Assembly: GCF_000428725.1 (NCBI RefSeq)
Contig: NZ_KE386793.1
Span: 316,524-380,523, forward strand
Direction of reading: 5' to 3'
DNA length: 64,000 nt
Origin: Psychromonas aquimarina ATCC BAA-1526
Lineage (GTDB): Bacteria > Pseudomonadota > Gammaproteobacteria > Enterobacterales > Psychromonadaceae
Part shown: one piece after another, positions 32,301 through 35,717 of the stretch
Position numbering within the stretch: the stretch's first letter is position 1
Layout of the letters: the number at the start of each line of letters is the position of its first letter
Notes under the pieces: model-generated
Told to the model about the DNA's origin: nothing
The model's database searches: none
Seen by the model: only the letters and a program-made list of their open reading frames with translations
Position numbers and translations under genes: made by a program

Positions 32301-33009
32301 GTTTATTTTTCAATTCAAGCGATAATTTTTCAATATGAGCGCTAAGCCGGCTTAATTCTGTCATCGCACGGTTATAGTCGTACTGATTACGAAAAAATAT
32401 GTAATCTTTTTCGTAATCACATACGCTTTCAATAATGTTTGATACTAGATATGAATGTGAAATATTCTCAGAAATTTCACCTATATTTTTACGCTGTTTT
32501 GTTACCGCTTCTCTATTTCGATTAATATACTTAAACTGTAGAATTTGTAATGCTTCAGAGCTTGCAGATGCCTTTACCGCTTTTTCTACCATAAGACTGA
32601 GGCTGTCATTTTTTTGTTCATTTAGTGTAAAGTAATGTTCGAATCCCTGCTGATAATCTTTAATTTGCTCTATTAACTGCACTGTATCAATGCTGCTGTC
32701 GATCTGATTCTCATGAAACTGCTGAACTAATAATAAAGACTCCTGAATATATGTCCTGGTTTCTTGTGCTTCTTCCTCTGAACCATCTCTGGTGAAGGTT
32801 AACTCGTGCAGTCTGGCCCTGTCTAAGGATCTTAACAGCAGGCCGGAACTATGATATCTGTCGACTGAGCTGAACAGATTATCAATACTCTGCCAGGCTG
32901 TTAATCCGACAGCAAAAAGCAGCAGGATCACCAGAATAAATCCCCACATAATCCTTTGCGATTTTCCCATCAGGCTGTCAGAGCTTACATTATTGAATTT
33001 GCTTAACAT
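29380..33009 (-). CDS. BarA-like hybrid sensor histidine kinase with REC and Hpt domains
   Basis: A 1209-residue membrane kinase. TM1 is at ~18-40, with a long alpha-helical coiled-coil periplasmic sensor (~45-435). TM2 is at ~440-462. HisKA has [15 protein letters not shown] (His ~501). The HATPase has NGIGLDRLQ and [18 protein letters not shown] divergent first receiver follows (~745-855, [17 protein letters not shown]), then a canonical second receiver ([21 protein letters not shown], Asp ~922), and last an Hpt domain with [14 protein letters not shown] (His ~1076). This is a complete phosphorelay except for the final response regulator. The upstream HD-GYP response regulator on the same strand is the obvious partner, now separated by a MITE. 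AAAGG lies upstream of the ATG. Confidence 0.92.
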
Positions 33010-33044
33010 TCAGGACGTGCCTTTATAAATTGTGATGAAATCAT

Positions 33045-33300
33045 TAGGGTCTGTTGATCTTTCAAGATTGTTTCTGCAACAGTTTGCCGGCTATTTATAC
33101 AAGGCTGAGTCTATGCAGTGTAGTTGTTCTACATAAATAGACGATAACGCATACGATCTTGTCAGCAAACGTTGCCCTTCGGGTTCATCTCAAAGCGTTT
33201 TGTTCTTTGTTGATTAGATGGCTAAGCCACATCTCGTTCGCCGCGATCAAAACGCTTTGAGATAGAACAAAAGTTAACCGGTAAAGATCAACAGACCCTA
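33045..33300. mobile_element. MITE with perfect 18-bp terminal inverted repeats
   Basis: 256 bp bounded by TAGGGTCTGTTGATCTTT and its exact reverse complement, with a TA dinucleotide at both outer ends as expected for a TA target duplication (IS630- or IS427-like elements). Inside, a second inverted repeat (TCTCAAAGCGTTTTG near 33189 and its complement near 33250) would fold into a large hairpin. There is no ORF of note. The right end lies inside the 3' end of the HD-GYP gene and supplies its stop codon. Confidence 0.85.
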
Positions 33301-34334
33301 GACTCCAGGTTATCGGTAAATGAGTTTTTAACCTTTAACACTTCAGGAAGTATTTGTAAAAACAGCGGCACTAAATGAGGATCAAAATGTGCGCCCGCTT
33401 CCCGGCGTAACAGCCCGCATGCCTTTTCAACTGACCAGGCTTTTTTATAGGGGCGTTCGCTGGTCAGTGCATCAAACACATCTGCAATGGCGACAATACG
33501 ACCGGAAAGAGGGATCTGTTCGCCGGCAAGACCGTTGGGATAACCACTGCCGTCCCATTTTTCATGGTGAGAAACAGCCACTTCACGGGCAAGTTTCAGC
33601 AAAGGGGAGTCCTGCCCGCCTAATATTTTTACCCCGTACTCGGCATGGCGCTGCATTTCACGGTATTCATCAGCATCCAGTTTGCCCGGTTTACAGAGAA
33701 TACTATCTGCAATACCTATTTTACCTACATCATGCATAGGGGCCGCTTCAAATAACAGGTTACACCATTGCGTATTGGCGCGATAAGCCTGCGCCAGCAG
33801 GCGGCTGTAGCTGCTCATTCTAATTACGTGCATGCCTGTTTCGTTATCTTTATATTCAGCGGCCCTACCTAAGCACTGAATGAGTTCTAACTGGTTTTTT
33901 TCTAACTGCTTAGTACGCTCAAGCACCTGCTGTTCAAGGAGACGCTGCTGCTTATAGAGTGATAACTGTGATTTTATACGGGCTTTAACAATAGCCGGAC
34001 TAACGGGTTTAGTTATGTAATCAACAGCTCCGATTTCAAATCCGGTCTGTTCATCAACGATTTCTGATTTAGCGGTAACAAATATTACCGGGATCTGCGC
34101 GGTAACAGGATCTGCCTTTAATCTTCGGCAGACTTCAAAACCGTCCATTTCCGGCATCACAATATCTAAAAGAATAATATCGGGTTTTGCCGAGCCGCCC
34201 GCAATCTCAAGCGCTCTTTCACCATTAACAGCAGCTTTGACCCGATATTGTTTTGATAATACGGCAGACAATATTTGAATATTCTCTGCCGTATCATCTA
34301 CTACTAACACCGTCATTTTTTCAATATCAGACAT
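33288..34334 (-). CDS. HD-GYP response regulator (c-di-GMP phosphodiesterase type)
   Basis: A 348-residue protein. The receiver is at ~8-125 (VLVVDDTAEN, phospho-acceptor in ILLDIVMPEMDGFEV, VTAK, YITKP). A coiled linker follows, then an HD-GYP domain (~155-330) with NETGMHVIRMSSYSRLLA, the metal motif MHDVGKIGI, VSHHEKWDGSGYPNGLAG, VAIADVFDALTSERPYK and AGAHFDPHLVPLF. It should hydrolyse c-di-GMP under control of phosphorylation. The last five codons and the TGA come from the MITE end (ESRVC*). The hybrid kinase downstream is its likely partner. Confidence 0.92.
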   Translation of the reverse strand: MSDIEKMTVLVVDDTAENIQILSAVLSKQYRVKAAVNGERALEIAGGSAKPDIILLDIVMPEMDGFEVCRRLKADPVTAQIPVIFVTAKSEIVDEQTGFEIGAVDYITKPVSPAIVKARIKSQLSLYKQQRLLEQQVLERTKQLEKNQLELIQCLGRAAEYKDNETGMHVIRMSSYSRLLAQAYRANTQWCNLLFEAAPMHDVGKIGIADSILCKPGKLDADEYREMQRHAEYGVKILGGQDSPLLKLAREVAVSHHEKWDGSGYPNGLAGEQIPLSGRIVAIADVFDALTSERPYKKAWSVEKACGLLRREAGAHFDPHLVPLFLQILPEVLKVKNSFTDNLESRVC

Positions 34335-34436
34335 CTTTCGGTTTCCACTATTCGACGGCTCTATTTTTTAATAAAGGCCGCTAAAAAAATCAGGACTGTA
34401 ACACAAAACAGCGAATAAAAGATGCTGATAATGGCG

Positions 34437-35717
34437 TTATATAATAAGTATCAGGGAAGTCACATAGAAATAGATCAGCAGGCCGCTCAGGTCTACGATA
34501 GTGGTGATTGCCGGGCTGGCGACAACGGCCGGATCCTGTTTACAGAATTTTGCCAGCAGCGGCAGAGCCGCACCCACAACCGTTGAGCTAAGCACTTGAA
34601 TAAACAGTGCCAGAGCAATCGCAATACCGATCATATTTAATGACAAACCGTCCGGCAGTTCAGCCCCAAAGGACAGAAACTGAATCTTTAAATAGGAGAC
34701 AGCAGCTAAAGCTGATCCGATAAAAATTGATATACGCAGCTCTTTCCATATTACTGCGCCGCAGTGCCTGATATTAAGTTCTCCTAGTGCCATCGAGCGT
34801 ATGATCACCGTTGCCGCCTGACTCCCGGCGTTGCCGCCGGTATCTGCAACCATCGGCATATATAAAGCCAAAATAACCAGGGCAGTAATAGCGTCCTCAT
34901 AACTTTGAATAACCATACCCGATAAAATACCTACAGCAGCGAGTCCCGCGATCCAGAAAATTCGTTTTTTGACATGTGTTAATACCGGAGTCTCAAGATA
35001 GGGAGCCTGGTCCATTTCACTCTGAATCCCCATCAGCAGTTCGACATCTTCAGTCTGCTCCAGGCGCATTACCTGCATTGCCTGTTTAGGACCGAATAAA
35101 CCAGCGGGACGGCCTTTGCCGTCAAGAATTGCTAAGCAGTCTAATGGACTTTGCTGTAATAATATTACTGCCTGCTCTTGATCTAAACCTGCATAGACAC
35201 CGGAAACGTGCTCACCGATATCTTTAAGCAGGGTATCTGCCTTATGGGTAAAGAGCTGATGTAATTCCAGTAATGTGCAGTAAAGACCTTGTTTATCAAC
35301 GATAAATAGTATTTTACCAGCAGTATTCAGATCCAGTAATTTTACCTGTTCAATAGCTTGTGCAGCGGTTGTATCGCCGCTTAAAGATAAAAAACGCCCG
35401 CAGCAGGTAACGGAAATAACCGGGTGCTCCTCAACAGACAGTTTTATGATGTCGCTTTTTAACCAGCTGGGCATATGTTTTCTTAAATAACTTCTGTCAG
35501 GCTCAGCTAATGCTTTATAGATGCTTAAGCACTGGCGCAGTGACATAGCGCCAAGCCATTGAGCAAGCGCTTCTGAGGTTAAACTTTTTATAAAGGTAAG
35601 TAACTGCTGGTTTTTGTTTTCAGTGTCGAAGTTGTGTTTTTTATGACGACAGACATCATAGTCATCTGCATAGTGCGGGTTAATGTAATCAGGTGTAACA
35701 GCTGTAATAGTGGACAT
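34437..35717 (-). CDS. mgtE: Magnesium transporter MgtE
   Basis: A 426-residue protein with a helical N-domain (~40-95, EALAQWLGAMSLRQCLSIYKAL), a CBS region (~110-240) and a C-terminal membrane domain with five helices. That domain contains the hallmark LYMPMVADTGGNAGSQAATVIIRSMALGEL, which lines the Mg2+ pore. The family carries Mg2+ across the inner membrane and is gated by cytosolic Mg2+ on the N/CBS domains. A structured, AT-rich 5' leader lies upstream. A GGGGAGG ribosome-binding site precedes the ATG. Confidence 0.95.
   Translation of the reverse strand: MSTITAVTPDYINPHYADDYDVCRHKKHNFDTENKNQQLLTFIKSLTSEALAQWLGAMSLRQCLSIYKALAEPDRSYLRKHMPSWLKSDIIKLSVEEHPVISVTCCGRFLSLSGDTTAAQAIEQVKLLDLNTAGKILFIVDKQGLYCTLLELHQLFTHKADTLLKDIGEHVSGVYAGLDQEQAVILLQQSPLDCLAILDGKGRPAGLFGPKQAMQVMRLEQTEDVELLMGIQSEMDQAPYLETPVLTHVKKRIFWIAGLAAVGILSGMVIQSYEDAITALVILALYMPMVADTGGNAGSQAATVIIRSMALGELNIRHCGAVIWKELRISIFIGSALAAVSYLKIQFLSFGAELPDGLSLNMIGIAIALALFIQVLSSTVVGAALPLLAKFCKQDPAVVASPAITTIVDLSGLLIYFYVTSLILII

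Follow-up and report, generated by a model that had tools for sequence, protein, structure and literature searches.

The minus strand of a 64,000-nt stretch of Psychromonas aquimarina ATCC BAA-1526 DNA (the window, by which we mean this whole stretch) carries a gene for a response-regulator HD-GYP protein and, downstream of it, a gene for a hybrid sensor kinase, with a palindromic sequence between the two. The question that this junction raises is whether a MITE split a pair of genes that once abutted and gave the upstream gene a new stop codon, as the initial annotation of this DNA had proposed, and what such an event would mean for both genes. A MITE did enter the junction between the genes of a conserved signalling pair, and the upstream gene now uses a stop of the MITE, as was correctly described. 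Abutment of TGA and ATG is plausible as a reconstruction but unproven, and related pairs do not share it.

The sequence between the two genes is a MITE

The window belongs to a genome of 5.53 Mb in 141 contigs (G000), and the features of the junction are given in Table 1. The two terminal arms are complementary at 18 of 18 bp (100%) and carry a TA at their outer ends, just as the initial annotation had described them. A search of the window with the 16-bp repeat lacking the TA (≤2 mismatches) returned 2 matches, which are the element's own two ends, against a shuffle mean of 0.02. The insertion had been sized at 256 bp, a figure that counts the 252-bp element plus both TAs, while the net insertion is 254 bp. 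No ORF of at least 80 aa lies wholly inside the 252-bp MITE, which thus has no transposase of its own. The identification as a MITE is sustained by the repeats, the TA duplication, dispersed copies, the lack of a transposase and an IS with matching ends.

Table 1. Features at the HD-GYP/kinase junction (window positions).
Feature	Position	Strand	Remarks
Hybrid sensor kinase, 1209 aa	29380..33009	-	HisKA, HATPase_c, receiver, Hpt; HBM-type sensor match below cut-off
Remnant between MITE and kinase, 35 nt	33010..33044	-	Predicted past tail NDFITIYKGTS + TGA (33010-33012) upon MITE removal
AAAGG, candidate kinase ribosome-binding site	33020..33024	-	10 nt before ATG; outside MITE; putative role
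MITE including both TA target-site copies	33045..33300	.	Repeat search and in-silico removal
MITE proper, 252 bp	33047-33298		11 bp shorter internally than 267-bp sister copies of the same genome
Terminal inverted repeat, one end, outer TA	33045..33062	+	Repeat search
Long internal hairpin of MITE	33187..33263	.	Part of covarying multibranch fold; arms 33187-33205 / 33245-33263
Terminal inverted repeat, other end, outer TA	33283..33300	-	Encodes RVC + TGA of HD-GYP gene
Current TGA stop of HD-GYP gene	33288..33290	-	Within MITE repeat
Response-regulator HD-GYP protein, 348 aa	33288..34334	-	Receiver 9-120, HD_5 158-321; last 3 residues MITE-derived

The transcript of the window copy is predicted to fold with -94.7 kcal/mol (z -8.7), and the pairs of the fold covary between copies. 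Such stability and covariation would also suit an old structured intergenic RNA element of the operon that was never inserted, a reading that is very improbable given that the same sequence is dispersed at other loci, that none of 17 related junctions has room for the palindrome, and that the sister copy L002 has an empty orthologous site with a single TA. No known RNA family was found at the locus when positions 32900-33450 were compared with 4227 Rfam families (E ≤ 1).

Sister copies, target duplication and the partner IS

Counting the window copy, G000 contains 5 full-length copies (256-267 bp) and 4 partial matches; the four other full-length copies are 87-90% identical to that of the window. 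Across the genus, MITE matches were found in 16 of 24 genomes. L002 lies in the stop codon of a radical-SAM gene, and the orthologous site of G016 is empty, with 119 of 121 bases identical across the join. Because that empty site has one TA, the family duplicates a TA upon insertion; this is shown for L002, and we infer the same from sequence at the window locus. The window copy differs by about 10% (gaps counted) from the sister nearest to it, and its flank may therefore have changed since insertion. Two copies beside a common flank (L005 and L174) were considered as one shared insertion, which was rejected on their opposite orientation and different distances from the flank.

A search with the 18-bp end, one position being left free, found it in 13 of 24 genus genomes. 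In G005, sequences beside these ends code for parts of a DDE_Tnp_1/DUF4096 (IS4/5-type) transposase, and matches to PF01609 (L208 and L204) and PF13340 (L208) place the partner IS in the IS5 family. The 18-bp TA-ended repeat of the G005 IS matches the repeat of sister copy L003 at every base and that of the window copy at 17 of 18. Since IS and MITE share near-identical ends, the MITE was presumably mobilised by an IS5-type transposase. No complete intact partner IS was recovered from the genus genomes examined, and the only such IS trace seen in G000 was a fragment at the end of contig C102 that resembles an IS end by eye. Comparison of the MITE interior with eight IS-end loci, all of which are incomplete IS copies, gave matches at E < 0.01 limited to the terminal 18-34 bp. 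Derivation of the MITE by internal deletion of the partner IS thus found no support in these loci, as no significant similarity extends beyond these terminal bases.

One genome of the genus, G018, yielded 63 matches to the 18-bp end (L205-L207 and other contigs), many of them at contig ends, as an IS with many collapsed copies would give; those few copies that were read appear rearranged. This pattern suggests a large expansion of the IS5-type element in G018.

The HD-GYP gene takes its stop codon from the MITE

The HD-GYP ORF ends ...NLESRVC, followed by TGA inside the repeat. The Arg-Val-Cys-TGA thus lies in the inverted repeat, in agreement with the earlier statement that the terminal codons and stop of this gene are read from the MITE end. 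When the MITE and one TA were removed by script, the frame ran on as ...NLESNDFITIYKGTS-TGA, and the HD-GYP gene ended ESNDFITIYKGTS-TGA directly against the kinase ATG (33007-33009). Removal reduced the distance from HD-GYP stop to kinase ATG from 278 nt to 0 nt, and that from residue 341 to the kinase start from 302 nt to 48 nt. The contact between TGA and ATG that had been predicted for the restored sequence was therefore reproduced. The frame had also been said to continue for 12 more codons; it does continue, but the tail is 11 residues and a stop, or 12 codons counting the stop. Because the change is confined to a non-conserved tail past the HD-GYP domain (the HD_5 match stops at residue 321), it is probably harmless and has probably left the enzyme intact.

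Related pairs are closely spaced but do not abut

The sensor part of the kinase had matches in 24 of 394 genomes of the order, G000 included. From these loci and 80 loci of named genomes we took 17 junctions in which an HD-GYP gene with a resolvable end lies upstream of the kinase; they are not independent, as several are from one genus. The paralogous pair of G000 is among the 17. The rows left out were 16 with the kinase far downstream or matching from the kinase core only, L064-L066 (repeats of L173, L153 and L165), L154, L156 and L157 (where the match to the upstream gene covered no more than its receiver), L152 and L158 (without an upstream HD-GYP match), and L169-L172 (weak or no matches).

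Gene order and strand were the same in all 17 junctions, and here as in the relatives the tandem consists of adjacent, co-directional receiver-HD-GYP and HisKA/HATPase/receiver/Hpt genes. The HD-GYP C-terminus fell 0-7 residues past the equivalent of Asp341 in 17 of 17. Spacers measured 15-36 nt in 15 junctions (in one of these, L160, use of an alternative TTG start would create a 4-nt overlap) and 87 nt in L151, and the genes overlap in L165. The distance from residue 341 to the kinase start was 24-53 nt in 15 of 17. Because the tandem is conserved, and because 48 nt remain here after removal vs. these 24-53 nt, insertion of the MITE into the junction of a once closely spaced, evolutionarily conserved pair is well supported by the comparison. 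In the aligned segment the related HD-GYP proteins are 60-71% identical to that of the window; the nearest homologue, L150 (70.6% HD-GYP and 50.5% kinase identity), ends ESYFLQR-TAA, seven residues past position 341, and has a 29-nt spacer.

The paralogous pair of G000 (L064/L173; contig C9, 57668-62328; 64% and about 40% identity) has no MITE and a 35-nt spacer. At L165/L066 (G014 contig C295), the HD-GYP gene is split over two frames near residue 268 and its end overlaps the kinase, through either a frame break or a sequencing error.

Searches for a MITE-free allele found none in the following sets: HD-GYP DNA against the 24 genomes of the family, G000 included and all of one genus (long matches ≤68% besides the locus itself); the kinase against the same 24 genomes (≤41% over full length, and up to 57% over the kinase core only); the sensor part of the kinase against the order, 394 genomes (best 48% outside G000), and against 129 genomes of the genus of the best sensor match (nothing closer than 48%); and the HD-GYP protein in the named genome collection (best 64% among the matches listed, 80 loci, from which very near records were possibly omitted).

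Did stop and start codons once touch?

The initial annotation regarded the restored fit as hard to explain by chance and as a sign of an ancestral coupled pair. In this account, the HD-GYP gene ended NDFITIYKGTS-TGA touching the kinase ATG (predicted junction SFTDNLESNDFITIYKGTS-TGA-ATG), and the MITE uncoupled a translationally coupled pair. A single event, with no further change, yields exact abutment on in-silico removal; a termination-reinitiation study takes spacings of -8 to +10 nt to predict coupling (PMC10666635); and reading frames do overlap at L165 (G014) and, from its alternative start, at L160. None of the 17 related junctions abuts, however, and their tails of 0-7 residues differ from the 15 predicted. 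Their spacers are at least 20 nt in 15 of 17 cases, and a spacing of about 20 nt almost abolishes coupling according to the same study (PMC10666635). Exact abutment also arose in 8.2% of dinucleotide shuffles of the 35-nt spacer (n = 20,000, frame fixed) and a stop ≤4 nt from the start in 11.3%; with any of three frames allowed, the same 20,000 shuffles gave 25.5%. The claim that chance could hardly explain the fit was thus too strong, and we rate the coupled, abutting ancestor at just short of an even chance.

Alternatively, the HD-GYP gene may have ended near residue 341-348 and the MITE may have entered the non-coding spacer, possibly landing in a stop-codon TA, as did 6 of 47 scored copies; after a later small frame change upstream, the TGA of the repeat would have caught the frame, and the abutment would be coincidental. 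This sequence of events agrees with the ends of all 17 related HD-GYP genes, with the occurrence of MITE copies in stop-codon TAs above expectation, and with the shuffles, in which abutment by chance was not rare. A CATCAC hexamer that starts 28 nt upstream of the kinase ATG at this locus, and 27 nt upstream of it in the non-coding spacer of L150, points weakly, by eye, in the same direction. The account needs an extra mutation that is without direct evidence, and the junction length agrees with a simple insertion. It is a real possibility, and we lean somewhat against it.

What the comparison supports of the proposed ancestral pair is a conserved tandem that was once closely spaced; an abutting, coupled TGA-ATG is unproven. 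The predicted tail and TGA-ATG, which homologues free of the MITE had been expected to display, were seen in 0 of 17. A different 3' end of the HD-GYP gene in homologues had been named as the observation that would count against the idea, and this was found in the relatives. As these homologues are diverged, an HD-GYP stop position specific to this species is possible despite them. The relatives do not favour a coupled ancestor over chance abutment.

Kinase translation and transcription across the element

The earlier suggestion that the kinase ribosome-binding site once lay inside the upstream gene holds if the predicted tail is right, as the candidate AAAGG would then fall in AAA GGC codons. 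At the current spacing, stop-start coupling is not expected, and the kinase is probably translated independently at its own ATG with the candidate AAAGG intact. A scan of positions 32900-34450 found one promoter-like site (shuffle mean 3.0) and one terminator-like site (shuffle mean 1.5), in both cases fewer than in the shuffles. The two sites are on the plus strand and outside the MITE, and a role of the MITE as supplier of a terminator or promoter was not supported by these results. Because no terminator or kinase-side promoter was seen, the kinase would still be transcribed from upstream, and co-transcription would have continued. The MITE RNA may also provide a processing site between the two reading frames, for which the cleavage of Correia-bearing transcripts by RNase III is a precedent (PMC10969869).

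Insertion sites and borrowed stops

Read inwards from its TA, the MITE offers TAG in one frame and AGG-GNC-TGT-TGA in a second. Among 33 distinct full-length copies of the genus (36 rows less three duplicates), 9 terminate an ORF of 60 codons or more at 3-13 nt into the MITE. Pfam matches were found for six of the eight such genes besides that of the window, the exceptions being L215 and L226. Ends of the RVC- or RGC-TGA type are taken from the same repeat at L176, L215 and L225 as well. Outside the family, 4 of 20 copies end an ORF of at least 70 codons (L249, L250, L251 and L261), and L250 and L251 may be one shared insertion.

For the insertion-site count, 51 copies were mapped (two tandem L220 copies were left out), 4 of which had no TA at the position used. 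The 47 scoreable copies comprised 32 intergenic copies, 9 in an ORF and 6 in a stop codon. At L002, L174, L198, L227, L249 and L261 (and at L226 by a shorter ORF), the MITE sits exactly in the stop-codon TA, and this TA plus the first G of the MITE restores TAG. In the same loci, 2,376 TAs are either non-coding or part of a stop codon, and 73 of them (3.1%) are stop-codon TAs, which gives a binomial p of about 0.001 for 6 of 38 copies, an excess that we treat as a lead because genes were defined as ORFs of at least 100 codons and the copies are not a random sample. The excess can come from target choice or, equally, from selection against other sites. One copy scored in an ORF (L004, 1501-1767) lies by eye near the 5' end of the frame; insertions are therefore not confined to gene 3' ends.

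Distribution and predicted fold of the MITE family

With L003 (~267 bp) as query, matches were found in 110 of 388 genomes of the order and in 27 of 113 genera. Those outside the genus often covered all 267 bases at 70-81%, and some weaker ones were partial. Thirteen plasmid or chromid records carry the MITE (Pseudoalteromonas 7, Vibrio 4, Catenovulum 2), with no gene listed under the best match in 12 of the 13 in a gene table that is itself incomplete.

Among 16 genus copies, 19 of 83 predicted pairs were changed on both sides, a number that 0 of 500 shuffles reached; further pair types numbered 42, which is not above the shuffle mean of 43.0. A second alignment combined 10 copies of the genus with 19 from twelve other genera of eight other families (L251 was left out). 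In these 29 copies, 40 of 68 pairs were changed on both sides and 94.8% of cells were paired; all five measures exceeded every one of 500 shuffles, and slid controls gave 12-23 such pairs. These counts lean towards structure, since the fold was itself predicted from the alignments used and the sequences share ancestry. Palindrome-correcting replication errors could mimic compensation. Pairs of the terminal repeats would covary for transposition alone, and internal helices would not.

No earlier description of the MITE family was named among the titles listed in the open-licence literature, which is weak evidence of absence. A broader reading is that the MITE is an undescribed, widespread structured mobile module of marine gammaproteobacteria: nearly fixed at ~267 bp, present in 27 genera, with a fold kept by paired changes in 13 aligned genera, bearing IS5-type ends, settling at gene 3' ends (including stop codons restored by its own TAG) and serving as a portable 3'-UTR or RNA-processing structure. 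We consider this reading unlikely as it stands; if it were true, the window copy, lying between two cotranscribed signalling genes, would be an instance of it.

Comparison with known elements

Events of this kind are known, according to two published accounts: a copy of MITEAba12 of Acinetobacter is fused to a gene 3' end and gives it a new stop codon (PMC6382973), and a Chunjie MITE lies in an operon of Geobacter uraniireducens (Chen et al. 2008, cited in PMC10969869). MITEAba12 is likewise attributed to a resident IS with matching ends, but it is 111-114 bp long, has a 9-bp target duplication and a weak predicted fold (-23.99 or -26.94 kcal/mol), and leaves a gene product 398 residues shorter, whereas only the tail is changed here (PMC6382973). 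Chunjie is also a small multi-copy MITE of similar size (235 bp at full length) found in an operon (PMC10969869). It is a different element in a different host, and here the 3' end of the upstream gene was rewritten. The review states that one of two phosphate uptake operons was disrupted by Chunjie, and the title it cites says that operon structure was undisturbed (PMC10969869).

The Correia, ERIC/IRU and RUP elements resemble the MITE in their terminal TA and strongly folded transcripts; ERIC copies occur at gene 3' ends in Yersinia, and RUP and the 155-bp Correia form have stop codons in all frames (PMC2229807, PMC10969869). All are smaller (about 107-155 bp) and are known under sequences of their own (PMC2229807, PMC10969869). 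The IS5-type IS of the genus (L204, L208 and others) shares an 18-20 bp terminal sequence including the TA, but it has a transposase coding sequence and resembles the MITE significantly in no more than the terminal 18-34 bp.

Proposed course of events and significance

It is highly probable, in our judgement, that a MITE was inserted, presumably by way of an IS5-type transposase, at a TA of the conserved tandem junction, and that the HD-GYP gene borrowed its stop, with the HD-GYP enzyme probably unharmed and the kinase probably still translated. A non-autonomous MITE, moved by an IS5-type transposase, would have entered at a TA in the short HD-GYP/kinase junction, and the TA would have been duplicated in the process. 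The HD-GYP frame would then read into the MITE and pick up Arg-Val-Cys-stop from the inverted repeat, while the kinase, keeping its own ATG and the intact candidate AAAGG 10 nt upstream, would be translated independently. Transcription from upstream would continue, with a stable RNA structure sitting between the two reading frames.

Such an insertion is ordinary for passenger-type elements, the last few codons of the HD-GYP gene of this marine bacterium having been replaced by the stop signal of the MITE, although the fold of the MITE itself is conserved across several marine genera. The locus is an example of a small mobile element that entered an operon junction with neither gene obviously broken, because, at the MITE ends, two of the three frames meet a stop codon within 13 nt. 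Together, the covarying fold and the stop-codon placement make a testable case that some bacterial MITEs persist because their hosts tolerate, or benefit from, the structure of their transcripts at gene 3' ends.
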